Positions 13,362-41,023 of a DNA stretch of 41,942 nucleotides are shown here, piece after piece; within the stretch, counting starts at the first letter, position 1, and each line of letters begins with the position of its first letter. The notes beneath the pieces are model-generated. The model worked only from the letters and a program-made list of their open reading frames with translations. It did not search any database and was not told where the DNA came from. A program made the translations under genes and the position numbers. This stretch comes from an uncultured Opitutia bacterium (GTDB lineage Bacteria > Verrucomicrobiota > Verrucomicrobiia > Opitutales > Opitutaceae): NCBI GenBank assembly GCA_903855985.1, contig CAIOAO010000040.1, positions 1 through 41,942 on the forward strand, written 5' to 3'.

Positions 13362-14504
13362 ATGGACGCCCGGCAGGAGGAGTTGCGCCGGCGGCTGGCG
13401 GCGCTGGGCTTCGATGACGTGCGTTTCGCCGCGGCGGACCCGCTGGTGGGCGAGGGTTTGCCCGGCTGGCTCGCGGCCGGCCAGCAGGCCGACATGGCCT
13501 GGATGGAGCGAACGGCGGAAAAACGCCTGCACCCGGAGCAGGTGCTGCCGGGCACGCGCTCCGTGATCATGCTTGGCGTGAATTACGGGCCCGGAAAACC
13601 GCGCGCGGGCGGCCCGGTGTGGGCGCGGTATGCGCTGCATGGGGATTACCATGACACGATGAAGCCCGGCCTGGTCGCGGCGGGGCGCGTGCTGGAGGAA
13701 ATCTACGGCGTGGGTGGCGAGGATTACCGCTACTACGTGGACACCGGCCCGGTGCTGGAGCGCAGCTGGGCGGCCCGCTCGGGTCTCGGCTTCATTGGGA
13801 AGAACGCGATGCTCATCTCGCGGCGCCATGGCAACTGGCTGCTGCTCGCGGCCATCCTGGCCCGGGTCGAGTTCACGCCTGATCCGCCGATCCGGAAACT
13901 GTTAGAAAACCGAAAATCAAAGATCGAAAATCCCGTCGGCCTGCTCTGTGGCAAATGCACGCGCTGCCTGGACGCTTGCCCGACGCAGGCGTTTCCCCGG
14001 CCGGGGGTGGTGGATGCGCGCCGGTGCATCTCGTACCAGACAATTGAGAACAAGGGCGTGATCCCGCGGGCGCTGCGCCGCGGGATCGGGGCGCACCTCT
14101 ACGGCTGCGATGTGTGCCTGGAAGTCTGCCCGTGGAACCGGTTCGCGCGCGAAGGCCGGCGGCTGCTGCTGGCGGTGCGTGATGAACTGACCGAGCTGAC
14201 CCTGGCGGAGCTGCTGGAGCTGACGCCGGAGCGGTTTGCCACGGTGTTCAAGGGTACCCCGATCAAGCGCGTGAAACACGCCGGCCTGCTGCGCAACGCC
14301 TGCATCGTGGCCGGTAACTCGGGCGACGTGAGCCTGCTCCCGCAGCTGGTGCGGCTGGCGGCGCATGAGTTGCCGTTGATCCGCGTCCACGCCGTGTGGG
14401 CGGTCCGCCGGCTCGGCGGCGAGTCTCGGCTCGCGGCGGCGCAGGCGGCGGAGACGGATGCGGCCGTGCTCGAGGAGTACGGCGCGCCCGCGGCGGATTA
14501 TTGA
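13362..14504 (+). CDS. queG: Epoxyqueuosine reductase
   Basis: Cobalamin- and iron-sulfur-dependent enzyme for the last step of queuosine synthesis in tRNA. The 380-residue protein carries two [4Fe-4S] motifs, CGKCTRCLDACP (Cys196, 199, 202, 206) and CDVCLEVCP (Cys249, 252, 256). It also has the conserved VDTGPVLERSWA segment with the proposed catalytic Asp127, and a HEAT-like C-terminal helix pair. The start follows aroK by 2 bases. Residues 182-191 (ENRKSKIENP), just before the first cluster motif, are encoded by an AT-rich repeat and are not typical of the family. The gene ends in a 7-base tail-to-tail overlap with the thioesterase gene. Confidence 0.94.
   Translation: MDARQEELRRRLAALGFDDVRFAAADPLVGEGLPGWLAAGQQADMAWMERTAEKRLHPEQVLPGTRSVIMLGVNYGPGKPRAGGPVWARYALHGDYHDTMKPGLVAAGRVLEEIYGVGGEDYRYYVDTGPVLERSWAARSGLGFIGKNAMLISRRHGNWLLLAAILARVEFTPDPPIRKLLENRKSKIENPVGLLCGKCTRCLDACPTQAFPRPGVVDARRCISYQTIENKGVIPRALRRGIGAHLYGCDVCLEVCPWNRFAREGRRLLLAVRDELTELTLAELLELTPERFATVFKGTPIKRVKHAGLLRNACIVAGNSGDVSLLPQLVRLAAHELPLIRVHAVWAVRRLGGESRLAAAQAAETDAAVLEEYGAPAADY
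13905..13933. repeat. in-frame cgaaaatc repeat inside queG
   Basis: The words gaaaaccgaaaatc and agatcgaaaatcc are much AT-richer than the rest of queG and match the repeat units at 6131-6163. The insertion keeps the frame and adds about ten charged residues to a loop ahead of the first iron-sulfur motif. Confidence 0.65.
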
Positions 14505-14899
14505 AACGTCTCGCCCATCTTCGCGACGAAGGCGGGCGGCGGGCGGGTGGGGCGGCCGTTGAGGTCGCAGAAGGCGTGGGCGCTGTGCCCGGAGGCGAGC
14601 AGTTCCTCGCCGCGGAAAACCTCGTATTCGAGGCGGATTCGCAGAAGCGGCTTTTCGCGCATGGTGACGACGATGGTCAGGTTGTCATCGTAAACGGCCG
14701 GGCGGATGAATTTCGCGGCGACCTCAAGCACCGGGATGCGGTAGCCGTCGGCCTCGAGCTGGCGGTAGGGAAAGCCCTGCTCGCGGAGCAACTGGGTGCG
14801 GGCGACCTCGAACCAGGGGAGGTAGTTGGCGTGATAGACGATGCCCATCATGTCGGTCTCGGCGTAGCGGACCGTGACCGAAGCGCGCGACTGGATCAT
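14498..14899 (-). CDS. Acyl-CoA/ACP thioesterase, YbgC/4HBT hotdog family
   Basis: A 133-residue single hotdog domain. The 4-hydroxybenzoyl-CoA-type active-site motif is RYAETDMMGIVYHANYLPWFE with catalytic Asp16 and His23. It hydrolyses thioesters; YbgC members act on short acyl-CoA or acyl-ACP and usually belong to the Tol-Pal operon, which is absent here. Its ATG overlaps the stop of the upstream GT4 gene by 4 bases, so the two are translationally coupled. Together with the nearby ACP, ketoacyl synthase and alpha-oxoamine synthase genes, this suggests a role in handling a special acyl chain, though that is inference. Confidence 0.88.
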   Translation of the reverse strand: MIQSRASVTVRYAETDMMGIVYHANYLPWFEVARTQLLREQGFPYRQLEADGYRIPVLEVAAKFIRPAVYDDNLTIVVTMREKPLLRIRLEYEVFRGEELLASGHSAHAFCDLNGRPTRPPPAFVAKMGETFQ

Positions 14900-16059
14900 G
14901 TTTCGACCTCCAGGGCGTGATTACCAAACAGCGCCTCGGCAGACTGCTTCCAGCAGTTGCGCCCGGCCCAGGCACGCCCGGCCTCGCCGAGCCGGTGGCG
15001 GAGATTTTCGTCGTGGATGAGCCGTTCGAACGCGGCGGCGAGCTGTGCGGGACGGTGGGGCGGGACGAGCAGGCCGGTGACGCCGTCAGCGACCGCCTCG
15101 GACACGCCCCCGACATCGTGGGCCACAACAGGCAGCCCATGGGCGGCGGCCTCGAGGTAGACGAGGCCGAAGCCCTCGATGCTGTGCTGCAGGTTGACGC
15201 TGGTCATCGCAAAGATGTCGGCGCGGTCGTAGATTTCCGCGAGTTCATCGTCCGGCAGGTTGCCTAGGAACTTGACGGCCAGGTCCGAGCCGGCCGCAGC
15301 GTTACGGAGGGACTCGCCGTAGCCGCCCTTGCCCGCGGCGCCGACGATCCAGTACTCGATCCGGCTCCGGACATCGGGCGCGAGCGACTGGAGGGCCTGC
15401 AGGGTGAGCAGCTGGCCCTTGCGCGGGTGGAGGCGGCCGACGGTGAGGACGATGATCTTATCCCGGGACCGAACGGGCTTGGGCGGGACGACGACGAAGT
15501 CGGTGCGCAACGCGCCGGGCGTAAGGAAGATCTTGTCGGCGGCCTCGGGGAAGGAGGCGAGCAGCAGCTCCTGGGTGTAGTTGGTCAGGGTGCTGACGCG
15601 CGCGGCGTGGCGGATCAGGCGGCGGGCGAGCCAGGTCCGCACCGGGCTGCGGGTGAACTTCAGGATCTCCGAGCCGTGAAAGGTCAGGACGAGCCGGCGG
15701 GGCCGGAAGGCGTGGAAGAATTGCAGGAGCATCATCGTCAACATCGGCCCGGGCTCGGGCAGGTAGACGATGGCATGGCGCAGCTGACGGCGGGTACGGA
15801 CGAGCTGGCAGGCCAGGCGGAACTGGCACCACAGGTCATGGGTGCCCTTGAGGGGCAGGCGCCGCAGGCGGAAGGGCCATTTTTTCTCCGCCTGGGGTGG
15901 GGCGGAGGGGGCCCAGACCTCGACATCATAGCCGAGTCCGGCGCTGGCCTTGGCGATTTCCTCGGCAAAGGTCGCGATGCCCCCGCGCACCGGGTAAAAC
16001 TCATGGGTGATGAGAAAAACGGGCCCGGCGGCGAAAGAAGAAAGGGAGGGTGAACTCAT
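14896..16059 (-). CDS. GT4-family glycosyltransferase
   Basis: A 387-residue GT-B glycosyltransferase. The N-terminal acceptor domain begins FLITHEFYPVRGGIATFAEE, a typical GT4 opening. The C-terminal donor domain has VGRLHPRKGQ and the E(x7)E motif EGFGLVYLE (295-303), followed by GLPVVAHDVGGVSEAV. It should transfer a sugar from a nucleotide-sugar donor to a lipid or glycan on the inner face of the membrane; donor and acceptor are not predictable. It is coupled to the thioesterase downstream and divergent from the ACP-dehydratase gene, with a 177-base gap. Confidence 0.9.
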   Translation of the reverse strand: MSSPSLSSFAAGPVFLITHEFYPVRGGIATFAEEIAKASAGLGYDVEVWAPSAPPQAEKKWPFRLRRLPLKGTHDLWCQFRLACQLVRTRRQLRHAIVYLPEPGPMLTMMLLQFFHAFRPRRLVLTFHGSEILKFTRSPVRTWLARRLIRHAARVSTLTNYTQELLLASFPEAADKIFLTPGALRTDFVVVPPKPVRSRDKIIVLTVGRLHPRKGQLLTLQALQSLAPDVRSRIEYWIVGAAGKGGYGESLRNAAAGSDLAVKFLGNLPDDELAEIYDRADIFAMTSVNLQHSIEGFGLVYLEAAAHGLPVVAHDVGGVSEAVADGVTGLLVPPHRPAQLAAAFERLIHDENLRHRLGEAGRAWAGRNCWKQSAEALFGNHALEVET

Positions 16060-16224
16060 GCGCGGGCAGCGGGTGCCAACGGGTTAGGTTTGGGGCCGGC
16101 AAGGGCCAGCGTCACGCGCAAATACAGGGAATCAAGCGCGGGGAACTTTTGCCGGCATTTTGCCACCATGGGAGGGCAGCCCAACCCAAGAATGGGGTTT
16201 ACATTCCAAGCCCCCGTAGCATAC

Positions 16225-16230
16225 AAAGGA
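16225..16230 (+). promoter_or_regulatory. Shine-Dalgarno of the ACP-dehydratase gene
   Basis: The sequence aaagga lies 6 bases before ATG 16237. It is one of the few clear ribosome-binding sites in the window and fixes this start. Confidence 0.6.
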
Positions 16231-16236
16231 TGAACA

Positions 16237-17214
16237 ATGCCCGAAGCCGTTCAACTCAACCAAGGCAGCAATAAACCGTTTGTCATTCCAGGCAAACCAT
16301 TTGCGGCAGAGGATGAGGCCGCGCTCCGCGAGGCCCTGAAGCGTTGCTCCCCCTCGACTTTTGAGGCGGCGGTCCAATTTCGCAAAACCGGCAATCCCGA
16401 GCACTTGCCGGCGGTGGTGATCGGGGTGATTGAGCGCTTTGTTGAGCCGGACCTCCGGATGAAGCTGAAGGATGCGGACGACGACCTGCGGCTCATCGAG
16501 GACCTGGGCATCGATTCGCTGACGATGATGGAAATCGTCATCCTGGTGGAAGACGTGCTCCAGATGTCGATTAACAACGACGAGTTGCGCAACTTGCGGA
16601 CCGTGGGCGACGTGAAGACCTTCATTGATTGCAAGGTGCGCGGGCTGGCCCTGCCGAAACCCACGAAATTCCTGCCCATCGAGCAGATCGCCGCGATCAT
16701 GCCGATCCAGCCCCCCTTCCTGTTCCTCAACGAGGCCTCGGTCAGCTCCAACGGCGCCAACGGCAAATACAAGATCACCGGCCAGGAGTTCTTCCTGCAG
16801 GGCCATTTCAAGGACAACCCCGTCATGCCGGCCTCGATCATGCTCGAGGCGCTGGGCCAGCTCGCGGTGCTCTACCTGCTCGAGGGTGCGGCGACCGAAC
16901 CGGGCAAGGTCATCAGCCCGAACACCATTTTCTTCACCGGCTGCGAGGGCGTCCGCGCCCACCGCGTGTGCCGGCCCGGTGACATCCTCACTCTGTCCAT
17001 CAAGCCGAAGCGCATGAAGATGCCGCTCGCGACCTTTGAGGGCGCGATCCGTGTCGGCCAGGAAAAGGCCGCCATCGCCGAGGAAATCACGATGACTTTC
17101 GGTTTTGCCGATGCCGTCGCCCAGCCGGTGCCCGTGAACGGGGCCACCACCAAGCTCAACGGTGAGAATGGCGCGCATGCGCCGACCCCGTTCCGCGCGG
17201 CGGTCAACACCTGA
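16237..17214 (+). CDS. Acyl carrier protein fused to a FabZ-like hotdog dehydratase
   Basis: This is a 325-residue two-domain protein. Residues ~58-133 form an acyl carrier domain with the phosphopantetheine site DLGIDSLTMME (Ser94). Residues ~145-290 form a hotdog domain with the FabZ-type signature GHFKDNPVMPASIMLEALGQ, including catalytic His190 and Glu204. The last ~35 residues are low complexity. A carrier domain fused to its dehydratase implies a dedicated chain in which the 3-hydroxyacyl intermediate is dehydrated while tethered. FabZ and ACP are separate proteins in ordinary type II fatty acid synthesis. The ketoacyl synthase gene follows after a terminator. The first ~45 residues are unassigned. 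The product chain is unknown. Confidence 0.88.
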   Translation: MPEAVQLNQGSNKPFVIPGKPFAAEDEAALREALKRCSPSTFEAAVQFRKTGNPEHLPAVVIGVIERFVEPDLRMKLKDADDDLRLIEDLGIDSLTMMEIVILVEDVLQMSINNDELRNLRTVGDVKTFIDCKVRGLALPKPTKFLPIEQIAAIMPIQPPFLFLNEASVSSNGANGKYKITGQEFFLQGHFKDNPVMPASIMLEALGQLAVLYLLEGAATEPGKVISPNTIFFTGCEGVRAHRVCRPGDILTLSIKPKRMKMPLATFEGAIRVGQEKAAIAEEITMTFGFADAVAQPVPVNGATTKLNGENGAHAPTPFRAAVNT

Positions 17215-17234
17215 GCCCGCGTCACCCCTGATCC

Positions 17235-17263
17235 GGCGGCCTCCTGCTGGGGCCGCCTTTTTT
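17235..17263 (+). terminator. intrinsic terminator after the ACP-dehydratase gene
   Basis: A 7-bp stem (ggcggcc / ggccgcc), a 9-base loop and six T residues lie about 20 bases after the stop. It separates this gene from the ketoacyl synthase, so the latter may have its own promoter in the 17264-17399 gap; ttgacc at 17293 is a possible -35 box, without a good -10. Confidence 0.8.
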
Positions 17264-17399
17264 GTGCCCGGCGGGAATCCCTGCCTCCCGCGTTGACCAG
17301 CGGCGGCGAACTGCCTTCATCCTTAGGGTCTATTCCACGGCGCAAGGCCCGGTCCCGGCAACGGGGCCGGAACCGAAGCTCCGCCCCACCATTTCCAGC

Positions 17400-18662
17400 A
17401 TGCCCAGAGTTTTCATCACCGGCCTCGGGTTCATCACCAGCATCGGCAACGACGCGACCCAGGTCACCCAGAGCCTGCGCGAACTCCGCCATGGCTTCGA
17501 ACTCTACCCGCCCTTTCAAAAACCGGAGATCCCGGTCAAGGTCGCCGCGCCCGTCCGGGGTTTCGCCACCGATTCGACCGATTGCGAGGACTGGTCCTTC
17601 CCCGCGCGCTACAGCATCAAGCGCGAGGTGCTCCGGGGCATGGCGCCGCACGGCGTTTATGCCTGGTGTGCGATGCAGCAGGCGGTCGAGGACGCGAAGC
17701 TGAGCGAGGCCGACGTTTCCAACGCCCAGACCGGCCTGTACGCCGCCTCCGGCGGATCGCCCTACCTGATGGGGCACATGTTGCAGCGCATGCACACGCT
17801 GGGCGTGATGCGCTGCTCGCCCCTCGGCATCGTGGCCTCCATCTCGGGCACGGTGCAGTTCAACCTCGTGGCGCATTTCAAGATCAAGGGCTCGTCCTGC
17901 GGCTTCGCGTCCGCCTGCGCCTCCTCCTCCCATGCCCTGGGCTTCGCCTACGACGACCTCGTGCTGGGCCGGCAGAAGCGCATGTTTGTCGTCGGCGCGG
18001 AGGACGGGAACATGGATGCCATCCTGCCGTTTGCGGGGATGCGCGCGCTTTCGCTCCAGGCCGACCCGAACCTTGCCTCGCGGCCGTTCGATGTCGCGCG
18101 CGACGGCTTTGTGGGCACCGGCGGTGGCGTCGTGCTGGTGCTGGAGACCGAGGACGAGGTGGCCCGGCGCGGTGTGAAACCCTACTGCGAAGTCCTGGGT
18201 TGGGGCCAGGCGTCCGACGGCCACAACGTCGCCATTTCCCATCCCGAGGGCACGGGCCTGCGGGCGGCGATGGAGAACGCGCTCCGTGCCACGGGCACGG
18301 CGGCCGAGGAGGTTGACTACGTGAACGCCCACGCCACCTCGACGCCGATCGGCGACCTGTCCGAGGCCAAGGCCCTGAAGGCGATTTTCAAGACCCCGGC
18401 GGCGCGCCCGGCGATCAGCAGCACCAAGTCCCTCACGGGCCACGGCCTCTCCCTGGCCGGGGCGATGGAGAGCGGCTTCTGTGCGCTGGCGATCCGGGAC
18501 GGTTTCATGCCCGGCTCCGCGCACATCTCGAAGCTCGATCCGGAATGCGAGGGCCTGAACATCATCCGCTCCACCCTTTCCGCGCAGCCCCACATCGCGC
18601 TCAACAACGTCAGCGGCTTTGGCGGGGCCAACGTCTCGCTCGTGTTCAAGCAAACCAGCTAA
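17400..18662 (+). CDS. Beta-ketoacyl-ACP synthase II-like (KAS) enzyme
   Basis: Decarboxylating condensing enzyme of the thiolase fold, 420 residues, close to the usual FabF length. The Cys-His-His triad is complete: Cys173 in SACASSSHA, His311 in NAHATSTP and His348 in KSLTGHGLSLAG, with Lys343. The N-terminus MPRVFITGLGFITSIG matches KAS II, so ATG 17400 is the start; the longer upstream frame runs into the terminator region. Placement between an ACP-dehydratase fusion and a lipid-type glycosyltransferase suggests a specialised chain-elongation step rather than the housekeeping fab cluster, since no fabD, fabG or acpP is nearby. Confidence 0.92.
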   Translation: MPRVFITGLGFITSIGNDATQVTQSLRELRHGFELYPPFQKPEIPVKVAAPVRGFATDSTDCEDWSFPARYSIKREVLRGMAPHGVYAWCAMQQAVEDAKLSEADVSNAQTGLYAASGGSPYLMGHMLQRMHTLGVMRCSPLGIVASISGTVQFNLVAHFKIKGSSCGFASACASSSHALGFAYDDLVLGRQKRMFVVGAEDGNMDAILPFAGMRALSLQADPNLASRPFDVARDGFVGTGGGVVLVLETEDEVARRGVKPYCEVLGWGQASDGHNVAISHPEGTGLRAAMENALRATGTAAEEVDYVNAHATSTPIGDLSEAKALKAIFKTPAARPAISSTKSLTGHGLSLAGAMESGFCALAIRDGFMPGSAHISKLDPECEGLNIIRSTLSAQPHIALNNVSGFGGANVSLVFKQTS

Positions 18663-18729
18663 CCGTGACCGCCGCGTGCTGCGAACCGGGTCGTTAATCC
18701 CGGCGCCTTCCCCCGACGCTTCCTGCCGC

Positions 18730-19929
18730 ATGTCCAAAGTCCGCATCCTTGTCCTCACTTCCAGCACCGGCGGCGGCCATGACGCCCGCGCGGAGGCCTT
18801 TGCGGAATGGTGTTTCCAGCTGTACCGGCACGACGTGGACGTGCGCATCGAGCAGATGCTCGAGCAGTCCTCCGTGGTGAACCGGGTGGGCGTGAAATTC
18901 TACAACCGCATCCAAAAGGCGGCGCCGTGGGTGCACATCTGGTTTTACACGGTGGTGGAAGTGCTGAGCTACCTCAACCGCCGCCGGGTGACCTTCGGTG
19001 CGCGCTACTACACCGAAGTCCTCCGCGAGTACCGGCCGCACCTCGTGTTCAGCGTGCACGACTGCCTCAACCGCGGCTACTTCCAGCTGGCGCGCCAGGT
19101 CCTCGGGGCGGACCGCGTGCGCTGCGCGACTTATTGCGGGGAGTTTTCCGGCGGCTGGGGCTACTCGCGCAACTGGATCGAGCCGACGGTGGACCTGTAC
19201 ATTTCCCGCACGCCGACGGCGCGCGACTTCGCGGTCAAGAAGGGCATCCCGGCGGAAAAGACGCTGGTCCGCGGCAACCTGATGCTGCCGACCGCCTATC
19301 TCGAGCCGATCCCCCCGGGCCAGCGCGGCACGTTCCGGGAGCACCGGCTCGGCCTGCGACCCGACCTGTTTACGGTGTTTCTCGCCACCGGCGGCAATGG
19401 CGCGAACAACCATGCCGACCTGCTGCCGGCGCTGGTGAAGCACGCGGACCGCGTGCAGGCGATCGTGATCTGCGGCAAGAACAAGCAGGCCTACCACGAT
19501 CTCGTCCACTGGCGGGCGAACCACCCGGAGTTCAACTGCTACATCGAGGGTTACTCCGAGATCGTGCACCTGCTCATCCAGGCGAGCGACGTCATCGTCA
19601 CCCGCGGCGGCACCACCACCTGCGCCAAGGCGCTGCATTTCGAGTGTCCGATCATTTTCAACGCCTTCGGCGGCATCATGCCGCAGGAGGAGCTCACCTG
19701 GAAATTCTTCCGCAACGGGGCGAGGTGCGAGAAGATCGAGAATGCGGCGGATTTTGAGGCCATCCTCGACCTGTGGATGGCCGACGCCGCCACCTACGGC
19801 AAGGTGCGGGAAGAGTTCCTGAAGCTGCGCTACGTGGATGACCCGACGGTGGTCATTGACGAACTGGTGGCCCTCGCGAACCAGCCGGCGCACGCCAAGC
19901 TCAAGCGCCGGCCGTTTCCGCCGCCGTGA
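18730..19929 (+). CDS. GT28 / MGDG-synthase-like glycosyltransferase
   Basis: A 399-residue GT-B enzyme. The opening ILVLTSSTGGGHDARAEAF is the glycine-rich acceptor-side motif of monogalactosyldiacylglycerol synthase and processive diacylglycerol glycosyltransferases. The C-terminal domain holds the nucleotide-sugar site, with DVIVTRGGTTTCAKAL and the later MPQEELTW segment. Family members glycosylate diacylglycerol or, as MurG, lipid I, at the cytoplasmic membrane. The context next to KAS and ACP genes makes a lipid acceptor likely here. Start is ATG 18730, 67 bases after the KAS stop; it converges on the methyltransferase gene with a 12-base gap. Confidence 0.85.
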   Translation: MSKVRILVLTSSTGGGHDARAEAFAEWCFQLYRHDVDVRIEQMLEQSSVVNRVGVKFYNRIQKAAPWVHIWFYTVVEVLSYLNRRRVTFGARYYTEVLREYRPHLVFSVHDCLNRGYFQLARQVLGADRVRCATYCGEFSGGWGYSRNWIEPTVDLYISRTPTARDFAVKKGIPAEKTLVRGNLMLPTAYLEPIPPGQRGTFREHRLGLRPDLFTVFLATGGNGANNHADLLPALVKHADRVQAIVICGKNKQAYHDLVHWRANHPEFNCYIEGYSEIVHLLIQASDVIVTRGGTTTCAKALHFECPIIFNAFGGIMPQEELTWKFFRNGARCEKIENAADFEAILDLWMADAATYGKVREEFLKLRYVDDPTVVIDELVALANQPAHAKLKRRPFPPP

Positions 19930-19941
19930 GGCGGCGCCGGG

Positions 19942-20658
19942 TCAGGCCGGCTTGGTGATCTCGACGAAGCTGGTGACGACGGGAATCTTGCCACCGTAGC
20001 ACCAGTTCACCGGGGAAAAATCCGGGTGGTTGCGGGGGGACGTGACCGGGTAGGGGGCGAAGAGGCGCTCGAGCTCCGCCTCGCTGAAATAGCGTACGCC
20101 CCGGGCAAACGGCACGGGCTCCTGCGAGCAGTCGGTGGTGATCAGCAGGCGGCCGCCCGGGGCGAGCACGCGGTACATCTCGGCGAGGGCCTGCTCGATG
20201 GCGGGGATGTGCTCGATGACCGAAAGCGAGATGATGCAGTCGAAGGACGCGTCGGGCAGGTTGATCCGCGTGAGGTCGATGTTGCGCACGGCGAGGCCGT
20301 GCTGGCGCATCGTGCGGTGCCAGGCAAGGTAGCCGATCTCGGTGGGCTTGGCCGGCGCGAGGCCGACGCGGCGCAGGGCGCTTTTCCAGGCCCGGGCCCA
20401 GAGCAGGTCGGAGACGGTGACCTGGGCGGGCAGGCGGGCCAGGTGCAGCCCGAGATAGGTGTTGAAGGCGCCGGTATCGAGGATGCGCGCGCCGGGTTTC
20501 AGGCCGGCGGTGGCCGCGAGCACGCGGCGCAGTTCCCAGTCGCGCATGCGCACCGGGAACCGGAAATCGGGCCCGAGCTGGGCGAGGATTTCCTGGTCAT
20601 AGGCCGCGAGCAGGCGCTCATCGTCGGGGGTGAAGTCGCTGCGGCGGTAGAAATTCAT
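19942..20658 (-). CDS. Class I SAM-dependent methyltransferase
   Basis: A 238-residue Rossmann methyltransferase. Motif I is degenerate: ARILDTGAFNTYLGLHLA replaces the usual DxGxGxG. The post-I and motif III region reads FDCIISLSVIEHIPAIEQALAEMYRVLAPGGRLLITTDC, typical of UbiE/Methyltransf_11 enzymes. The substrate is not predictable; in this setting a sugar, lipid or glycan is plausible. It diverges from the GT4 gene at 20747 and converges with the MGDG-like gene. Confidence 0.82.
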   Translation of the reverse strand: MNFYRRSDFTPDDERLLAAYDQEILAQLGPDFRFPVRMRDWELRRVLAATAGLKPGARILDTGAFNTYLGLHLARLPAQVTVSDLLWARAWKSALRRVGLAPAKPTEIGYLAWHRTMRQHGLAVRNIDLTRINLPDASFDCIISLSVIEHIPAIEQALAEMYRVLAPGGRLLITTDCSQEPVPFARGVRYFSEAELERLFAPYPVTSPRNHPDFSPVNWCYGGKIPVVTSFVEITKPA

Positions 20659-20746
20659 TCAGGAAAGGAAAGGGCAGGTTCCATGGCCGGCGGGGGCTCC
20701 GCGAGCGAAAAATTGGGACGCAAAGGGCTTCCCGTGCGGCCCCGGC

Positions 20747-21997
20747 GTGCTTTACGTTGAGGCCTTGGAACCGCCCAAGCCCACCGTCGCCTACCTTTAC
20801 ACCACGTTTCCCAAAGCCACGGAGACGTTCATGCAGCGCGAGATCATTGCGATGCGCGCCCACGGGGTGCAGCTGCGGATCTATTCGCTCTGGGGCGGCG
20901 GCGGCTCGTTTCGCGGGCTGCCGGTGGCGCGGTTCAACAAGTGGAAGCTGCTCACGCTGTTCTGGATGATCCCCTATGAATCCTGGCGGCGGCCCGAGGT
21001 GCTGCGGCAGGTGCTGCGCGGGCTGGTCACGCGCCGGCCGCCGTCGTGGATCAATTTCTGGGAGAACATGCTCGGCGCGGGTTTTGCCTGCCTCTGGGCC
21101 CGCGAATTCCGGCAGAATCCGCCCACCCTGATCCATGCGACCTGGGGCGGGGCGCCCGCCACCGCCGCGTGGCTGCTGTGGCGGCTCGACGGCCACCGCT
21201 ACAGCGCGGCGGCGCACGCCTACGACCTCTACGAGCACGGCGGCGACTGGTGGCTGCGCGACAAGCTGGAGCATGCGGCCTTCATTCACACCTCGACCGA
21301 GATGGGCCGCCGGGCGCTGGTCGAGCGCGGGCTGGCGGCGGAAAAGATCTTTTGCATCCGCCGTGGCCTCGACCGGCTGGCCGCGCTCAAGCCGCTGCGC
21401 GCCTCGCGGGCACCGCTGCACCTGCTGTGCGTGGCGCGCCTCGTGGAAAAGAAGGGCCTCGACCACCAGCTCCGCATCTACGCCGCCCTGCAGGCCGCGG
21501 GCGTGGAGTTCGAGGCGCACATCGTCGGTGAGGGTCCGCTGCGGCCCGAGTTGGAAAAGCTGGCCGGCCACCTCGGCGTCGCCGCGCAGGTCGCCTTCAC
21601 CGGGCATCTGCCCCAGCACGAGGTCTGGACCCAGCTCGCCTGGGCCGACGTGCTGCTGCACACGGGCGTCATCGCCCCGAGTGGCGACCGCGACGGCCTG
21701 CCCAATGTCATCCCCGAGGCGATGTCGCTCGGGACGCTGGTGGTGACCTCGCCCATTGCGGCGACGACCGAGGCCATCACCGATATGGTCACCGGCCTGG
21801 TGGCCCCGGCGACCTCGCCCGGCGCGTGGGTTGACGCGCTGCGCCGCCTCTCGACGGATGATGTGCTGGCGGAAAAGCTCCGGGCGGCGGCGCACCGGTG
21901 GGTGGAGGACAATTTCGACGCGCATAAAAACGCCGAGCGGCTGCTCCGGCAGTTTGAGCGCGTCATCGCCGAGGCCGGGGAAGACGCCACGCCATGA
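20747..21997 (+). CDS. GT4-family glycosyltransferase, WcaL-like
   Basis: A 416-residue GT-B enzyme. The opening AYLYTTFPKATETFMQREI is typical of colanic-acid WcaL-like GT4 proteins. The donor domain shows VARLVEKKGLDHQL and DGLPNVIPEAMSLG (about 314-329), where Glu replaces the first Glu-x7-Glu position by context. It should add a sugar to a lipid-linked glycan. No ATG precedes the first strand: GTG 20747 is used and TTG 20765 is the alternative. Its stop overlaps the next gene's start as ATGA, so the two GT genes are coupled. Confidence 0.88.
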   Translation: MLYVEALEPPKPTVAYLYTTFPKATETFMQREIIAMRAHGVQLRIYSLWGGGGSFRGLPVARFNKWKLLTLFWMIPYESWRRPEVLRQVLRGLVTRRPPSWINFWENMLGAGFACLWAREFRQNPPTLIHATWGGAPATAAWLLWRLDGHRYSAAAHAYDLYEHGGDWWLRDKLEHAAFIHTSTEMGRRALVERGLAAEKIFCIRRGLDRLAALKPLRASRAPLHLLCVARLVEKKGLDHQLRIYAALQAAGVEFEAHIVGEGPLRPELEKLAGHLGVAAQVAFTGHLPQHEVWTQLAWADVLLHTGVIAPSGDRDGLPNVIPEAMSLGTLVVTSPIAATTEAITDMVTGLVAPATSPGAWVDALRRLSTDDVLAEKLRAAAHRWVEDNFDAHKNAERLLRQFERVIAEAGEDATP

Positions 21998-23037
21998 TTT
22001 ACTTCGACGTCACCAAGGCCGCCGAATCCGGGCACCGCTCCGGCCTGCAGCGCGTGAGCGCGCGGCTGGGGGAGGCGCTTGGGACGGCTGCGACGCCGGT
22101 GACCTGGGACGAGGGCCTGCGGGACGCGCGGAAACTGGAGCGGGTGAAGCCTGCGCCCGGCGACTGGTTCTTGACCGCGGAAGTTTTCTCCGGGGACGAA
22201 CGGCCGGGCTTCGGTGAGTTCATCCGGTCGGGCCGCGTGCGCACGGCGGCGATGTTCCATGATGCCATCCCGCTGAAATTCCCGCACATCACCTGGCCGC
22301 AGAGCGTGGCGCGGCATCCGGGTTACCTGAAGTTTCTCGCGGCGTATGACCGCGTGTGGGCGGTGTCGGAGGCGAGCCGGTCCGAGCTCACCGGCTTCTG
22401 GCGCTGGCAGGGCCTCGAGAAAACCCCGCCGGTGGGCGTGCTGGCGCTCGGGGCGGATTTCAATGGCGCGGCGCGGGTGACCCGGCGGGACGTGCCCGCG
22501 GGGGCGAAGCCGAAGCTGCTCTGCGTGGGCATCCTCGAGCCGCGCAAGAACCAGGCGCTGCTGCTCGACGTGGGCGAGGAGCTCTGGGCCGAGGGCCTGA
22601 AGTTCGAGCTGCACCTCGTCGGTCGCGTCAACCCGCATTTCGGCGCCCCGCTGGTGGCGCGGATCAAGGCGCTGCAGCAGAAGTTTCCCGGGCTGCGTTA
22701 CCATGACGCGGCCAGTGACGACGAGGTGGCCCGGCTCTACGCGAGTGCCCGGGCCAGTGTGTTCCCGACGATCGCCGAGGGCTGCGGGCTGCCGCTGCTG
22801 GAGTCGCTCTGGCAGGGCGTGCCCTGTGTCTGCAGCGACCTGCCGGTGCTGCGGGAAAACGCCGACGGTGGCGGCTGCCTGCCGGTGGCGGTCAACGACC
22901 GGGTAGCGTGGAAGGATGCGCTGCGCCGGGTGCTGACGGACGAGGCACTGTCCGGGCGCCTGGGTCGCGAGGCGGAAGTCCGGACGCTGCCAACCTGGGC
23001 GGCCGCGGCGGCGGCGCTGCGGGCGGAGCTGGGTTGA
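21994..23037 (+). CDS. GT4-family glycosyltransferase (paralogue of the gene at 24302)
   Basis: A 347-residue glycosyltransferase with a GT4 donor domain: LCVGILEPRKNQALLLD, FPTIAEGCGLPLLESLWQGVPCVCS. The central part (TAEVFS, FHDAIPLKFP, ARHPGYLKFL, VSEASRSEL, FWRWQG) matches the minus-strand gene at 24302-25465 segment by segment, so the two are paralogues. They flank the alpha-oxoamine synthase gene in opposite orientation. It starts with a 4-base ATGA overlap with the upstream GT4 and converges on the oxoamine synthase with a 7-base gap. Confidence 0.88.
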   Translation: MIYFDVTKAAESGHRSGLQRVSARLGEALGTAATPVTWDEGLRDARKLERVKPAPGDWFLTAEVFSGDERPGFGEFIRSGRVRTAAMFHDAIPLKFPHITWPQSVARHPGYLKFLAAYDRVWAVSEASRSELTGFWRWQGLEKTPPVGVLALGADFNGAARVTRRDVPAGAKPKLLCVGILEPRKNQALLLDVGEELWAEGLKFELHLVGRVNPHFGAPLVARIKALQQKFPGLRYHDAASDDEVARLYASARASVFPTIAEGCGLPLLESLWQGVPCVCSDLPVLRENADGGGCLPVAVNDRVAWKDALRRVLTDEALSGRLGREAEVRTLPTWAAAAAALRAELG

Positions 23038-23044
23038 ACCCGGC

Positions 23045-24241
23045 TCAGAGCTTCTTCACCGCGTAGGCCATGGCCTCCGCGATTTTTTCGAGCTGCTCCT
23101 CGGTGTGCATCGCCGAGATGGCGGTGCGGATCAGGTCCTTGCCGGCGGGCACCGCGGGGGCGATGGACATGACGGTGAAGACGCCCTTGTCGAGGAGTGC
23201 CTTCCAGAAGGGGTAAACGCGCTCCTTCGAGCCGAGCACGATCGGCACGGCGGGCGTCTCGCTGTTCCAGATATCCAGGCCCAGGCCCTTGAGCATGGCC
23301 TTGTATTTCTTCGTGTTGGCCCAGAGCCGCTCGAGGTGCTGCGGCTCGCTCTGCATGATCTCGAGCGCGGCCATGGCGGCGGCGGTCTGGCCGGCGCTGA
23401 TGGCGGCGGAGAAAATCGTCTGCTTCGAGTTGGTGCGCAGGTATTCGATCACCTCGCGCGAGCCGGCCACGTAGCCGCCGGTGCTGGCGAGGGACTTGGA
23501 CATGCTGCCGCAGATCAGGTCAACCTTGTCGCCCAGGCCAAAGTGCTCGGTGGTGCCGCGGCCCTGGCGGCCGAGGACGCCGAAGCCGTGGGCATCATCG
23601 AGGATCGTGAAACAGCCGTATTCCTCGCCGATCTCGGTGAGCTCGGGCAGGCGGGCGATGTGGCCCTCCATGGAGTAGACGCCCTCGATCACAAGGAGCT
23701 TGGCGGCGTCGAGATTGCTGGTGCTGAGCACCTCGCGCAGGTCATCCGGGCTGTTGTGCGAGAAGCGCTCGACCGTGGCGTGGGAGAGGCGGATGCCGTC
23801 CCAGAGGCAGGAGTGGAGATTCTTGTCGCCGAGGATGACGTCGCCCTTCTGCGCGAAGGTGGCGACGGTGGTCATCACGGACAGGTAGCCCGCGGCGTGG
23901 ATGTGGCAGGCCTCCTTGCCGAGGAACGCGGCGAGCTTGTCCTCGAGCTCCACGTGGAAGGAGCGCGAGCCGTTGGAGGAGCGGGCGCCGTTGGTGCTCG
24001 TGCCCCACTGGCGGGTGGCGGTGTTGGCGGCCTCGATGACCTTGGGGTGGAAGGACAGCCCGAGGTAATCATTGCTCGAAAGCATGATCATGTCGCGTCC
24101 ACCGAGCCGGACGGTCGTGTCCTTCTGCGACTCCATCGCCAGATAATAGGGCGCGTATTTCAGCCGCATCTTCGTCGCGTAATCATCGCGGCAGCGGTTG
24201 AGAATCGCCTTTTTATTTTTAACGAAGAAGGAAAGCGCCAT
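23045..24241 (-). CDS. Alpha-oxoamine synthase (serine palmitoyltransferase / AONS / KBL family)
   Basis: PLP enzyme that condenses an amino acid with an acyl thioester, releasing CO2 and giving an alpha-amino ketone. The 398-residue protein has the substrate-loop motif SSNDYLGLSFHP, Asp216 and His218 in DDAHGFGVLG, and the PLP lysine Lys249 in GSMSKSLASTGG. Family choices are 8-amino-7-oxononanoate synthase (biotin), 2-amino-3-ketobutyrate ligase, ALA synthase and serine palmitoyltransferase. No other bio or tdh gene is nearby, while an ACP, KAS, thioesterase and glycosyltransferases are. A sphingoid-type role is therefore plausible but not proven. It is the last gene of the minus-strand run from the MBOAT gene. 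Confidence 0.87.
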   Translation of the reverse strand: MALSFFVKNKKAILNRCRDDYATKMRLKYAPYYLAMESQKDTTVRLGGRDMIMLSSNDYLGLSFHPKVIEAANTATRQWGTSTNGARSSNGSRSFHVELEDKLAAFLGKEACHIHAAGYLSVMTTVATFAQKGDVILGDKNLHSCLWDGIRLSHATVERFSHNSPDDLREVLSTSNLDAAKLLVIEGVYSMEGHIARLPELTEIGEEYGCFTILDDAHGFGVLGRQGRGTTEHFGLGDKVDLICGSMSKSLASTGGYVAGSREVIEYLRTNSKQTIFSAAISAGQTAAAMAALEIMQSEPQHLERLWANTKKYKAMLKGLGLDIWNSETPAVPIVLGSKERVYPFWKALLDKGVFTVMSIAPAVPAGKDLIRTAISAMHTEEQLEKIAEAMAYAVKKL

Positions 24242-24301: not shown

Positions 24302-25465
24302 TCACCCCCGGCGGGGCAATTCCTGCATCCAAGCCGACACTTCGGCGGCATACGCGGACCAGGGCTTGAACGTGCGGGTCCGCGCCGTGGCGGACAGCGC
24401 GGCGAGTTCGGCCGGGTCGGCGAGCAGGCGGGCGATGGCGGCGGCGAGGCTGGTCGCATCCACGGCCGCGAGGGCAAGGCAGCCCCCGTCGCGGGAAAGT
24501 TCGCCGAGGGCGCCCGAGGCGGAGCAGATGCAGGGCCGGCCGCGGGCGAGGCTTTCGATCACGGGCAGGCCGAAACCCTCGGCGAGCGAGGGATAAACCG
24601 TGAAGGCGCAGGCGGCGTAGGCCGCGTCCACGTCGGCATCCGGCAGCGGACCGTCGTAGCGCAGCGGCCGGCCGGCGAGTTGGAGGGCCCGCAGTTTGGC
24701 CAGCGCGACGGCGCCGGTCTGCCGCTGGACCGAGCCGACTAGGCGCAGCTCAAACTTCTCGCCGCGGGTCCAGAGCAGTTCGCAGGCCTCGAGCAGGGCG
24801 AGGTGATTCTTGCGGCCCTCGAGGGTGCCGACCGACAGCACGACGGGAGTTTCGGCGCTGGTGGCGGCAGGCTGGTCCGCGACGGGCGGCAGATCGACAC
24901 CCAGGGAAATGGTTTTGACCGGCGGCGGATTGGACTCTCCCAGCCAGCGCCAGTAGGCGAGGAGTGATTCCCGGGATTCCTCCGACACGGCCGCGATGCC
25001 ATCGAAACGCAGCAACTCCTGCAGGTAGCCGGGGAAACGGGCCACAGTGCCGGCCGGGGAGAGCTCGGGAAAACGCAGGGCAATCGCGTCATGGAAAACC
25101 GCCACGCGTGGAAAAACCTCCGGCAGCCGCGCGGCCACGGCGGGAGAGAAAACCTCGGCGGTGAGGAAACCGCAAAAGTCGCCGCGCAGGCCCAGGTCCG
25201 CCGCGCGGGTGTTGAAGCGGCGCCACCGGCTGCGCCAGCGGGCGGTCCACGGCCACTGCGCCCCGCGCGTTGCGCTCGTGTCGGTGGCCGAGAGGTTGGC
25301 GAGTTCCCATGCCTCGAGCGGCCGCCATTCCCCGAGATAGGGATCATGCGTGACCGCGGTCGCCGTCGCGCCCAGTTCGCGGTGCAGCGCGCGCGCCACG
25401 CGCTGGATGCCGGTGCGGGCCCGCGTGTGGCTGGTGTGGGTCAGGTCGAGCAGGAGGGCGGGCAT
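24302..25465 (-). CDS. GT4-family glycosyltransferase (paralogue of the gene at 21994)
   Basis: A 387-residue glycosyltransferase starting MPALLLDLTHTSHTRARTGIQRVARAL, an opening seen in GT4 proteins with the RTGIQR motif. The donor domain has LSVGTLEGRKNHLALLEA and SLAEGFGLPVIESLARGRPCICS with the E-x7-E pair. Shared segments with the gene at 21994 (TAEVFSPAV, FHDAIALRFP, ARFPGYLQEL, VSEESRESL, YWRWLG) show paralogy. ATG 25465 is chosen; a TTG at 25486 is in frame. It lies between the GT-C gene and the oxoamine synthase on the same strand, probably in one operon. Confidence 0.88.
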   Translation of the reverse strand: MPALLLDLTHTSHTRARTGIQRVARALHRELGATATAVTHDPYLGEWRPLEAWELANLSATDTSATRGAQWPWTARWRSRWRRFNTRAADLGLRGDFCGFLTAEVFSPAVAARLPEVFPRVAVFHDAIALRFPELSPAGTVARFPGYLQELLRFDGIAAVSEESRESLLAYWRWLGESNPPPVKTISLGVDLPPVADQPAATSAETPVVLSVGTLEGRKNHLALLEACELLWTRGEKFELRLVGSVQRQTGAVALAKLRALQLAGRPLRYDGPLPDADVDAAYAACAFTVYPSLAEGFGLPVIESLARGRPCICSASGALGELSRDGGCLALAAVDATSLAAAIARLLADPAELAALSATARTRTFKPWSAYAAEVSAWMQELPRRG

Positions 25466-25511
25466 GGCGTGCGGGGAATCGGTCAACGGACTGGGGGTGC
25501 CCCGGGGTGAC

Positions 25512-31501: not shown

Positions 31502-32233
31502 ATGGATGCCGGGGAATACCGCAAGCTGGCCGCCGTGGAAGATGCCATGTGGTATTTCCGCGCGCTGCATGCGCATGTCGGCCGGGAGCTGTCGGCGCAC
31601 CTGCCGGTGGGGCCGGGGCGGATCCTGGACGCGGGCTGCGGCACCGGCGGGCTGATCCGGCGGCTGGCGCCGCTGCGGCCGGAGTGGACGTGGACGGGCG
31701 TGGATGTGTCGTCGCTAGCCTGCGAACTCGCGCGGGAGCGGGGTGCGGGCGACGTGACGGAGGCGTCGGTCACGGCGCTGCCCTTTCGGGCCGGGGAATT
31801 TGCGGCGGTGGTATCGGCCGACGTGCTCTATCATTTGGATGACGACGAGGCGGCCCTGCGGGAAATGACGCGCGTGCTCCGTCCCGGCGGCATCGTGGTG
31901 ATCAACGTGCCTGCCCATCGCTGGCTATGGTCGTACCATGATGTCGCGGTGGCCGGCCGGCGGCGCTATACGCGGCCGGAACTGGCGGAAAAACTGGCGC
32001 GGGCGGGCCTGACCACGCTGCGACTCACGCATTGGAACAGCGTGCTGCTGCCGCTCATCGCCGCACGGCGCAAGTTGCTCCCGGCGCCGAAGGGCGGCAG
32101 CGACGTGAACCTATCGCCAGCGTGGTTGGAGTCCGGGCTTTCCGCGGTTCTGGCGGGCGAGTCCGCGTGGATCCGTCGCGTGGGTAACCTGTCGCTGGGC
32201 AGTTCGATCCTGGCGGTAGCCCGCCGCAGGTAG
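31502..32233 (+). CDS. Class I SAM-dependent methyltransferase
   Basis: A 243-residue methyltransferase with a clean motif I, ILDAGCGTGGLIRRLA. WTGVDVSSLACELARERG follows for the acidic ribose contact, then SADVLYHLDDDEAALREMTRVLRPGGIVVINVPA. These place it in the UbiE/Methyltransf_11 group, whose close relatives often accompany polyprenyl-linked glycosyltransferases. The substrate is unknown. It is the first gene of a plus-strand run with the GT-C-like protein, SDR, DegT and GT2. Confidence 0.87.
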   Translation: MDAGEYRKLAAVEDAMWYFRALHAHVGRELSAHLPVGPGRILDAGCGTGGLIRRLAPLRPEWTWTGVDVSSLACELARERGAGDVTEASVTALPFRAGEFAAVVSADVLYHLDDDEAALREMTRVLRPGGIVVINVPAHRWLWSYHDVAVAGRRRYTRPELAEKLARAGLTTLRLTHWNSVLLPLIAARRKLLPAPKGGSDVNLSPAWLESGLSAVLAGESAWIRRVGNLSLGSSILAVARRR

Positions 32234-32292
32234 TTCTCCCGGTGCTTTTCATTGCCAGGCAGTCCCGGGTCGTGATAGGGTGTTTCCGCTTC

Positions 32293-34515: not shown

Positions 34516-34540
34516 GCCCGGCCGCCCTAGGCCTATACCC

Positions 34541-35542
34541 ATGTCCACCCTCTCATCCTATCGCGCGGCCTATGCCGGAAAACGCGTATTGATCACTGGC
34601 GGGCTGGGTTTCATCGGGTCGAACCTGGCCCGCGCCCTGGTGACGCTGGGAGCGAAGGTCACGATCGTGGACAGCCTCATCCCGGAATACGGCGGCAACC
34701 GCCGCAACCTGGCCGGGATCGCGGGCCGCATGCGGGTGCATATCGCGGATGTGCGCGACTGGCCGAAGTTGCCGAGTCTCGTGCGCGGGCAGGATTTCCT
34801 GTTCAACCTCGCGGGACAGACGAGCCACATGGACTCGATGACCGATCCGCAGACGGATCTCGACATCAACGGCCGCGCGCAGCTTGCGATCCTCGAGGCG
34901 TGCCGGCTGCACAATCCCGGCATCAGGATCGTCTTCGCCAGCACGCGCCAGATCTATGGCCGGCCGGATTACCTGCCCGTGGATGAAAAGCACCCGCTGC
35001 GTCCGGTGGATGTGAACGGCATCAACAAGATCGCCGGCGAGTCCTACCACCTGCTTTATTCCCGCGTGTACGGCCTGCGGGCCACGGCGCTCCGGCTGAC
35101 CAACACCCTTGGGCCCGGGATGCGGGTGAAGGATGCGCGGCAGACCTTTGTCGGCGTCTGGATTCGCCGCCTGATTGAGGGCGAGCCCTTCGAGGTGTGG
35201 GGCGGGGAACAGCTGCGCGACTTCACGTACGTCGGGGATGCGGTGGAGGCGTTCTTGCTCGCCGCCAGCCGGCCGGAGGCGGTCGGTGAGGTGTTCAATC
35301 TCGGCGGTCCGCCGCCCGTCACGCTACAGCGGCTCGCGGAGACGCTCGTCGAACTCAACCGGGGCGGTTGTTTCGTGGTGCGGGCGTTTCCCGCGGACCG
35401 GAAGAAAATCGACATCGGCGATTTTTACGCGGACGACCGCCGGATCGCCCGCAAGCTTGGGTGGCGCCCGCGCACGGATTTGCGCCGGACCCTGGCCCAG
35501 ACCCTGGCCTACTACCGCAAGGAACTAAAACATTATGTCTAA
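34541..35542 (+). CDS. Extended SDR, NAD-dependent sugar-nucleotide epimerase/dehydratase-like
   Basis: A 333-residue protein with the NAD motif TGGLGFIGSNLA (19-30) and the VFASTRQIYG strand holding Ser134/Thr135. The catalytic motif normally reads YxxxK; here it reads NGINK, with Asn159 at the Tyr position and Lys163 kept. Classical epimerases and 4,6-dehydratases need that Tyr, so the chemistry may differ or use another acid/base. I recall relatives with the same VNGINK segment beside DegT genes, so the change is probably a family trait. Start is ATG 34541; the last 8 bases overlap the DegT gene. Confidence 0.85.
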   Translation: MSTLSSYRAAYAGKRVLITGGLGFIGSNLARALVTLGAKVTIVDSLIPEYGGNRRNLAGIAGRMRVHIADVRDWPKLPSLVRGQDFLFNLAGQTSHMDSMTDPQTDLDINGRAQLAILEACRLHNPGIRIVFASTRQIYGRPDYLPVDEKHPLRPVDVNGINKIAGESYHLLYSRVYGLRATALRLTNTLGPGMRVKDARQTFVGVWIRRLIEGEPFEVWGGEQLRDFTYVGDAVEAFLLAASRPEAVGEVFNLGGPPPVTLQRLAETLVELNRGGCFVVRAFPADRKKIDIGDFYADDRRIARKLGWRPRTDLRRTLAQTLAYYRKELKHYV

Positions 35543-37585: not shown

Positions 37586-37612
37586 CCGGACCGCGGAAAT
37601 GCGGCGCGGGTG

Positions 37613-38557: not shown

Positions 38558-38595
38558 CGGCCCGAAGGATGGGGTGGTGGGGGGACGGCGCAAAA

Positions 38596-39750: not shown

Positions 39751-39757
39751 GACGGGA

Positions 39758-40651: not shown

Positions 40652-40664
40652 GGGTTATCGGTCA
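40645..40664. repeat. left inverted-repeat copy bounding the S23 gene
   Basis: The sequence gggtcatgggttatcggtca carries the core acccatgaccca (reverse complement) at 40645-40656 that is also found at 41018-41029 in opposite orientation. It contains the rfbA start codon. Confidence 0.65.
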
Positions 40665-41023
40665 GAACGTGCGCGGGCTTTGATGAGTGAGCCAAGCATA
40701 CGGCCGATTTTGGCACAAGTGACTTCCAGTTGGTCGTAAATCTTCGGTTCCAACGCCTCGATATCGCGCGCAATCTCCAATTGGGTTCGAAGTTCACCCA
40801 GTGAACCCTTTGCGATATATAAAAAGCGAACCGAGTCCCTATTCGTGTCCCGTTCATCGCCTTCCGCGATGTTGGAAGAGATGGAAACAGCTGCTCTTCG
40901 GATTTGGTCTCGTAAACCAAAGTCCCGGGCGAGTGGCCCGTTGGCGGTGAGGCGGTAAATCGTCACAGCGAGCGACTTGGCGCTCTGCCACACTCGCAGT
41001 TCACGGAATCCTTGGTCACCCAT
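40655..41023 (-). CDS. Four-helix-bundle protein, 23S rRNA intervening-sequence (S23) family
   Basis: A 122-residue protein with the S23-family pattern: FRELRVWQSAKSLAVTIYRL, DFGLRDQIRRAAVSISSNIAEGDERD, FLYIAKGSLGELRTQLEIA. Members form small four-helix bundles; some are encoded in 23S rRNA intervening sequences, and the related Avd proteins assist diversity-generating retroelements. No reverse transcriptase is present here and the cellular role is unknown. The gene is visibly AT-richer than its neighbours and sits inside the rfbB-rfbA operon, bounded by an inverted repeat. This suggests it was inserted as a mobile passenger. Confidence 0.93.
   Translation of the reverse strand: MGDQGFRELRVWQSAKSLAVTIYRLTANGPLARDFGLRDQIRRAAVSISSNIAEGDERDTNRDSVRFLYIAKGSLGELRTQLEIARDIEALEPKIYDQLEVTCAKIGRMLGSLIKARARSDR

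Follow-up and report, generated by a model that had tools for sequence, protein, structure and literature searches.

A stretch of DNA from an uncultured bacterium of the Opitutaceae (the window, 41,942 nucleotides; all positions below are window positions) holds, at 14498-24241, genes for acyl-chain building, for glycosylation and for an alpha-oxoamine synthase (AOS), and this raises the question whether they make one sphingoid-type glycolipid. We analysed the parts of this locus, their conservation in related genomes and the placement of the AOS. The genome of the window is denoted G000, and other G-numbers denote the genomes with which it was compared.

Gene content of the locus

The interval encodes a thioesterase, three family 4 glycosyltransferases (GT4), a fusion of an acyl carrier domain with a FabZ-like dehydratase (ACP-dehydratase), a beta-ketoacyl-ACP synthase (KAS), an MGDG-synthase-like GT28, a methyltransferase and the AOS. 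The parts named in the sequence-only reading were all recovered by Pfam profiles and motifs, and the gene list agrees with that reading in that a ketoreductase, an enoyl reductase and an N-acyltransferase are absent from the interval. The hotdog thioesterase (14498..14899, minus strand; 4HBT_2, E 1.1e-17) adjoins GT4a and ACP-dehydratase in many loci of the family, and the position of GT4a (14896..16059, minus; Glycos_transf_1, E 9.8e-40) is conserved as well. The ACP-dehydratase (16237..17214, plus) consists of a conserved N-terminal helical extension, a carrier domain (PP-binding, E 4.4e-6; Ser94 within a DSL motif) and a dehydratase domain (FabA-like, E 1.8e-15; FabZ-type His190) that resembles FabZ structures in the predicted model (pLDDT 76.5). 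The KAS II-type enzyme (17400..18662, plus; the ORF opens at 17262 and 17400 is the probable start) matches ketoacyl-synt and Ketoacyl-synt_C and carries the motifs SACASS, NAHATST and KSLTGHG, which we take to represent the Cys-His-His triad; the catalytic motifs of what had been described as a complete KAS II are intact, and the score against the NCBIfam fabF model is 314 bits, below the cut-off of 493.75.

The GT28 gene (18730..19929, plus; ORF from 18619, with 18730 as probable start) was identified by profiles and by an AlphaFold2 model (pLDDT 86.4). Its score against Pfam MGDG_synth (24.8 bits) just misses the cut-off of 25.0. The top PDB matches of the model are 4wyi (Arabidopsis MGD1; TM-score 0.86 by target, 0.73 by query) and 4x1t, ahead of MurG, which supports an MGD1-like predicted fold and fits the lipid-type enzyme proposed earlier; MGD1 is the closest in structure, yet only 19% identical. 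It is followed by a SAM methyltransferase (19942..20658, minus; Methyltransf_11, E 1.2e-13), which was missing from the earlier list and occurs sporadically, in some relatives only. GT4b (20747..21997, plus), GT4c (21994..23037, plus) and the AOS (23045..24241, minus; Aminotran_1_2, E 5.7e-48) complete the interval. Just outside it lies GT4d (24302..25486, minus), which, like GT4c, adjoins the AOS in many loci; GT4b and GT4c were assigned by Pfam.

Conservation in the Opitutales and deletion of a reductase gene

Of the relatives the best 80 of 321 were kept, and the genome comparison comprised 57 genomes including G000. Co-occurrence in relatives had been put forward as a check on the locus: AOS and ACP-dehydratase are both present in 44 of the 57 genomes, one only in 5 and neither in 8 (Fisher p 2.5e-6, a statistic that ignores phylogeny and genome reduction), and they lie within 15 kb of each other in 24 of the 44. 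In the other 20 they do not lie this close, the two genes being on separate contigs in 19 (some at contig ends) and on the same contig, far apart, in G016. ACP-dehydratase occurs without an AOS orthologue in G021, G051, G055 and G056. Among the neighbours of stand-alone AOS genes that were scanned, which are part of all neighbours and included MurJ, a polyprenyl synthetase, GT2, GT9 and others, no shared acyltransferase was found.

The loci of two other families define a smaller unit. ACP-dehydratase, GT4b and AOS lie within 3.5 kb in G039 and together, with GT4c, in G053; KAS and GT28 do not adjoin them, and KAS is found elsewhere in both genomes. The local core in these families is thus ACP-dehydratase, GT4b and AOS, with KAS and GT28 outside it. 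The locus is split in G019 and G023, where AOS goes with SDR (short-chain dehydrogenase/reductase), GT28, GT4b and GT4c, and KAS and ACP-dehydratase go with the thioesterase and GT4a. With respect to G014, G030 and G017 the identity is 76-80% for AOS and 71-89% for ACP-dehydratase, against 59-73% for three housekeeping neighbours, and 50-64% for GT4c and GT4d, mostly below these neighbours. The best match to GT28 is just 32-37% identical in 8 of the 12 genomes searched, and none was found in G049.

Of 85 distinct loci, 60 have an SDR gene located between KAS and GT28. This census started from 100 loci; those in which the KAS or GT28 match was short were dropped, as were rows identical to one another, and its loci share their origin in part with the 57 genomes. 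Comparison of the KAS/GT28 junction of G000 with that of the SDR-bearing G003 shows that the gene was cleanly deleted, leaving a scar at 18663..18729 (plus), and no match above 32% identity to this SDR was found elsewhere in G000. The gap could be an assembly fault of one MAG; 24 other loci of the census also do without the SDR. The sequence-only reading had supposed that a ketoreductase would have to come from elsewhere, which does not hold for the lineage, since the SDR belongs to the locus in 60 of the 85 loci and was lost in G000. When the SDR of G003 was compared with four genomes, its identity was 50-56% in two (other locus members 67-84%) and 70-72%, similar to that of its neighbours, in the remaining two.

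The alpha-oxoamine synthase and the ceramide partners

Placement of the AOS relative to serine palmitoyltransferase (SPT), AONS, KBL and ALAS, also suggested beforehand, was done in an IQ-TREE phylogeny of 57 rows that includes the window and 17 of 37 Opitutales orthologue ORFs and is drawn midpoint-rooted (L207 yielded no AOS; SulA and CqsA are absent). The Opitutales clade (18 rows) is placed among the SPTs, within an SPT-containing group with support 99/93, and is sister (98/90) to a Rubrobacter enzyme whose gene adjoins bCerS- and CerR-like genes; AONS references (98/86, with other rows) and KBL (100/100) form separate groups, a second AOS of G000 falling with KBL. The best PDB match is the SPT of Sphingobacterium multivorum (3a2b; 330.7 bits), followed at a distance by the best AONS/KBL entry (263.8) and a cysteate acyltransferase (202.9); 3a2b is the nearest solved sequence and shares the catalytic residues, but lies outside the Opitutales clade. 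The types of residue to which the consulted part of PMC9304779 assigns a role in SPT/SulA catalysis are kept (Asn57, His143, Asp215, His218, Lys249, Arg372). An SPT model ranks first among NCBIfam models, with cut-offs missed throughout (NF047600, 393.2 vs 640; NF047599, 343.7 vs 500; NF047603, 266.6 vs 670); the Rubrobacter enzyme is also below the SPT cut-offs, and the cut-off of NF047599 is exceeded by the enzymes of Roseomonas and P. veronii. The stretch NGARSSNGSRSFH is unlike the reference SPTs. By tree, residues and database matches it is well supported that the AOS is an SPT-branch enzyme, which would catalyse an SPT-type step. Neither this placement nor the co-occurrence in relatives thus refuted the sequence-only reading.

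We then inspected G000 for the partners that finish ceramides. PF04339, which we assumed to be a proxy for bCerS, had no match in G000; it was dropped because it matched Caulobacter and Synechococcus but not Bacteroides, and bCerS-like plasmid sequences were used in its place. With the Rubrobacter bCerS-like protein as query no match at E ≤ 1e-4 was found in G000 (3 of the 57 genomes were positive), and the search for CerR, in 6 genomes, left G000 without a match at E ≤ 1e-12. The latter search was positive in G020, where the gene adjoins its bCerS, and gave weak matches (1e-13 to 1e-16) in G009, G014 and G030. A canonical ceramide locus is present in one relative in addition to the present locus; for G000 the canonical ceramide pathway was rejected, homologues of bCerS and CerR not being found.

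Two known systems are comparable, as far as the consulted parts of their descriptions go. The Caulobacter-type ceramide pathway (Spt, AcpR, AasR, CerR, bCerS; PMC11324152, PMC11087976) also has an SPT-branch AOS and, encoded nearby, a dedicated carrier, but the carrier of the present locus is fused to a dehydratase, KAS adjoins it, a classical SDR is present in the locus of many relatives, and bCerS and CerR were not found in G000. SgaA/SgaB of Pseudomonas fluorescens MYb115, which make polyketide-derived sphingolipids (PMC12134224), likewise pair an SPT-active or SPT-type AOS with its own chain builder; there the builder is a monomodular PKS, whereas the locus has discrete KAS, ACP-dehydratase and SDR and several glycosyltransferases.

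A putative sphingoid glycolipid route and its alternatives

We consider it about an even chance (roughly 0.5) that the locus makes a sphingoid-type glycolipid, with a 2-amino-3-keto or 2-amino-3-hydroxy alkyl base, using its own chain-building set. The scheme that we infer, from the acyl donor and the amino acid to the order of the steps, the SDR substrate, N-acylation, the glycolipid product and its cellular role, would run as follows. KAS and ACP-dehydratase, with housekeeping keto- and enoyl-reductases, would assemble or complete an acyl chain attached to the dedicated carrier, while the thioesterase would clear mis-loaded carrier. The SPT-type AOS would join the acyl thioester to serine or another small amino acid, with loss of CO2, to give a 3-keto long-chain base, the keto group of which would be reduced by the SDR in lineages that retain it; since the SDR is lost in G000, the ketone would there be kept or another SDR would take over. 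The MGDG-like GT28 would add the first sugar, and GT4b and GT4c (and GT4a and GT4d) would extend it. More tentatively, the Opitutales might hold a second, independent sphingoid route, in which a discrete, ACP-bound module of KAS and ACP-dehydratase, the latter with its unusual N-terminal extension, feeds the SPT-type enzyme directly, the SDR replaces CerR (or the ketone is kept where the SDR was dropped), and sugars are added to a base that has undergone no bCerS-type N-acylation; we regard this extension as possible but doubtful.

In favour of the single route stand the SPT placement of the AOS, its linkage to ACP-dehydratase, the high conservation of these two genes and the MGD1-like predicted fold of GT28. 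The location of the AOS on the strand opposite to ACP-dehydratase, KAS and GT28 is a point against a single pathway, and in several genomes the gene lies elsewhere. Further points against it are the four genomes with ACP-dehydratase but no AOS orthologue, the position of KAS and GT28 outside the local core, the mostly lower conservation of GT4c and GT4d, the N-acyltransferase that was looked for and not found, and the published polar lipids described below. The locus may instead comprise two separate adjoining modules, KAS, ACP-dehydratase, SDR and the glycosyltransferases making an acyl-derived glycolipid or the lipid anchor of a surface polysaccharide, and the AOS making a sphingoid base from housekeeping acyl-ACP. 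This fits with the four genomes that have ACP-dehydratase without AOS, with the pairing of KAS and ACP-dehydratase with thioesterase and GT4a in G019 and G023, and with two observations made by eye: a polysaccharide cluster (RmlA, RmlB, DegT and others) borders the locus, and in G051 a separate dehydratase and KAS are followed by a gene resembling a Kdo transferase. Such a division agrees less well with the 44:5:8 distribution and with the continued linkage of ACP-dehydratase, GT4b and AOS in G039 and G053, where KAS and GT28 do not adjoin, and we judge it a real but rather unlikely possibility.

Other alternatives concern the AOS itself. Its amino acid substrate might not be serine but glycine or alanine, which would give 1-deoxy bases, or a charged amino acid; the product would then be an amino-ketone glycolipid and no true sphingolipid. 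The low score against the first-ranking NCBIfam SPT model and the departing stretch named above point this way, and other amino acids are hypothesised for Spt in the consulted part of PMC11334938; given the position among SPTs, as sister to an enzyme encoded near bCerS- and CerR-like genes, and the fact that this Rubrobacter enzyme falls below the same cut-offs, we find such a specificity improbable. A SulA-type cysteate acyltransferase for sulfonolipids shares the fold family, and SulA accepts acyl-ACP (PMC9304779, consulted in part), but at the position of the diagnostic Lys281 of SulA, which was located by a mutagenesis primer printed in that paper and not by alignment to SulA, the AOS has Ala279, and its match to the cysteate acyltransferase is well under that to SPT; in spite of the absence of SulA from the tree we rejected this identity as very improbable. 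The organism's biotin AONS or threonine-catabolic KBL would have the PF00155 fold in common with the AOS, but both groups are separate in the tree, the KBL group holding the second AOS of G000, and this placement rules them out with hardly any probability left.

Returning to the sphingoid-type glycolipid, this product may be one not described before, because the known ceramide-finishing partners were not found in G000. SPT-like proteins from 22 Verrucomicrobiota MAGs have already been published, and in the parts of the literature consulted no description of the present locus was found. Harmless members of the Opitutaceae are in culture. In the part of PMC13274419 consulted, the polar lipids of an Opitutales isolate (UHPLC-HRMS) are PC, DPG, PE, PG and relatives, sphingolipids being unmentioned, and its table has polar-lipid entries for 3 of 8 taxa, phospholipids only; the isolate and these taxa may or may not carry the locus. 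The consulted parts of PMC12193912 and PMC5303756 yielded no polar lipids and reported fatty acids, respectively.

According to the part of PMC11334938 consulted, one survey took the joint presence of Spt, bCerS and CerR as the mark of a sphingolipid producer; a later survey relied on the tree of Spt and pointed out groups, Cloacimonadota among them, that have no partners nearby. A conserved SPT-type gene in a locus for chain building and sugar transfer, with the partners undetected in G000, would mean either that the three-gene rule has a blind spot or that a different class of lipid is made. From the repeated SDR losses it can be predicted in which lineages keto bases, and in which hydroxy bases, might occur.

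Identity of the oxoamine synthase and ceramide-pathway partners

All parts that the sequence-only reading had listed for the locus (window 14498-24241, on contig C40 of a 2.9 Mb genome in 110 contigs) were matched by Pfam and NCBIfam, and inspection of the sequence found the catalytic motifs kept (ACP Ser94, dehydratase His190 and the KAS motifs). In a 57-row tree, the alpha-oxoamine synthases (AOS) of the Opitutales form a single clade (100/100) within a group (99/93) whose other members are SPTs, two unclassified rows and one PKS-borne AOS; the AONS, ALAS and KBL references lie outside that group, and a second AOS of the window genome was placed with KBL. The sphingoid-like role proposed earlier for the synthase thus withstood the comparison, as it groups with neither AONS nor KBL and falls among the SPTs. 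We consider an SPT-type first step at the locus well supported (probability about 0.85). As a prediction, SPT in Verrucomicrobiota is not new, since a Black Sea study, which used the same tree logic for Spt assignment, has already reported Spt-like proteins in 22 Verrucomicrobiota MAGs (PMC11334938).

The sister of the Opitutales clade is a Rubrobacter enzyme (98/90), and next to its gene stand one resembling bCerS (38% to the Roseomonas counterpart) and one resembling CerR (29% to that of P. veronii). Type I-D CRISPR genes are found not far from the Spt-, bCerS- and CerR-like genes of Rubrobacter radiotolerans plasmid 1, an actinobacterial plasmid. Homologues of bCerS were recovered in 3 of the 57 genomes, and a search of the window genome found none. 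One Opitutaceae relative, G020, carries a canonical set (Spt, AasR, bCerS, LptF/LptG and CerR, with a weakly matching AcpR; L191, at G020:C13:57000-70000, and L221) besides the conserved locus. In G003, a bCerS homologue adjoins an AOS that clusters with the PKS-borne AOS and lies inside a 1371-codon open frame, with a ketosynthase match 1.5 kb off (G003:C69:58000-67595). The canonical ceramide pathway is therefore sporadic in these genomes and separate from the conserved locus. YghO is a homologue of bCerS. The bCerS and CerR reference identities are our own assignments, based on mutual similarity, on where the genes stand relative to Spt, ACP and LptF/G in annotated plasmids and on the Caulobacter gene order given in PMC11324152.

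Conservation and gene order

The sample of 57 genomes spanned genus, family and order and included the window's own. With ortholog cut-offs chosen after the E-value gap was visible (E ~1e-39 for ACP-dehydratase, ~1e-90 for AOS), and with ACP-dehydratase counted as a fusion or as separate genes, ACP-dehydratase was present in 48 and AOS in 45 genomes: both in 44, ACP-dehydratase only in 4, AOS only in one half-complete MAG and neither in 8. The expected co-occurrence in relatives was borne out, the two genes lying within 15 kb in 24 of the 44. The best 80 of 321 relatives of ACP-dehydratase were labelled as Opitutae, Opitutaceae and other Verrucomicrobiota MAGs, some from the same genomes; 52 of these 80 loci had at least 8.5 kb of downstream sequence, and the AOS was found there in 28. 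It was elsewhere or farther away in 22 of the 24 genomes whose flank had none. Across the phylum (E ≤ 1e-25), ACP-dehydratase occurred in 20 of 145 genomes, all of the same class and 18 of the same order.

The complete order is TE-GT4a, divergent from ACP-dehydratase, KAS, SDR, GT28, GT4b and GT4c, with AOS and GT4d convergent. L060 (G056) contains ACP-dehydratase, KAS, GT28 and GT4b and no AOS; L059 (G051) contains a separate dehydratase and KAS without AOS, followed by a gene resembling a Kdo transferase. The SDR (adh_short, E 3.2e-38) lies between KAS and GT28 in many relatives. Its top NCBIfam matches are general SDRs (≤140 bits); the scores for FabG (113 bits) and for 3-ketodihydrosphingosine reductase (106 bits) fall far below the respective cut-offs. 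It was present in 60 of 85 distinct loci and absent from 25, the window included, a distribution that takes 12 or more changes on a quick KAS+GT28 tree; it is thus a normal but dispensable member. G003, whose KAS is 97% identical to that of the window, retains it; relative to G003 the window skips from the first SDR codons to the SDR end, and no match above 32% identity exists elsewhere in the window genome. The earlier statement that a ketoreductase is not seen holds for the window locus itself, but the supply from elsewhere that it invoked need not apply to the lineage, as an SDR belongs to 60 of the loci.

Related carriers and neighbouring genes

A second locus of the same genome (G000:C105:30000-46000; L041 594-3218 and 6889-8855) combines an ACP, a KAS (55% to the window KAS) and a DXD-type glycosyltransferase with, 3.7 kb further, two stand-alone ACPs and then a phytanoyl-CoA dioxygenase. 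The ACPs share an N-terminal extension (LKRCSPxT...GVIERFxEPD; window 16300-16450, L041 594-971, 6889-7353 and 7396-7920), which is kept in 12 aligned fusions and predicted to be helical. We know of no such extension in other acyl carrier proteins, and these perhaps form a lineage-specific subfamily. To the right of the locus, a polysaccharide-type cluster (window 31502-41906; RmlA, RmlB, DegT, GT2s and an acyltransferase) was assigned mostly by eye; it includes a 757-aa protein with no Pfam match.

One pathway or several

The best, circumstantial, evidence for one pathway is that the AOS is kept with SDR and GT28 in some genomes and with ACP-dehydratase in other lineages. The locus of G019 and G023 lies in two places, TE-GT4a-ACP-dehydratase-KAS in one and SDR-GT28-GT4b-GT4c-AOS in the other, and therefore the SDR and the lipid-type glycosyltransferase remain with the AOS there. 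In other families of the order (G039, G053) the genes found together are ACP-dehydratase, GT4b and AOS, with GT4c added in G053 and the KAS located elsewhere in both genomes. GT28 would likely act on a lipid, because its predicted model (pLDDT 86.4) best matches MGD1, followed by MurG, and NCBIfam ranks diglucosyl-diacylglycerol synthase first (75 bits against a cut-off of 500). Against one pathway, ACP-dehydratase occurs without AOS in G021, G051, G055 and G056, and the GT28 match is weak (32-37%) or absent in 9 of 12 genomes searched. We consider a functional link between ACP-dehydratase, GT4b and AOS likely; that the locus encodes a complete glycolipid pathway is an evenly balanced proposition. 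Like the known bacterial ceramide pathway, the Opitutales variant would use SPT-type chemistry; what sets it apart is a carrier and chain-building module of its own, made of discrete proteins, and the lack of the known ceramide partners.
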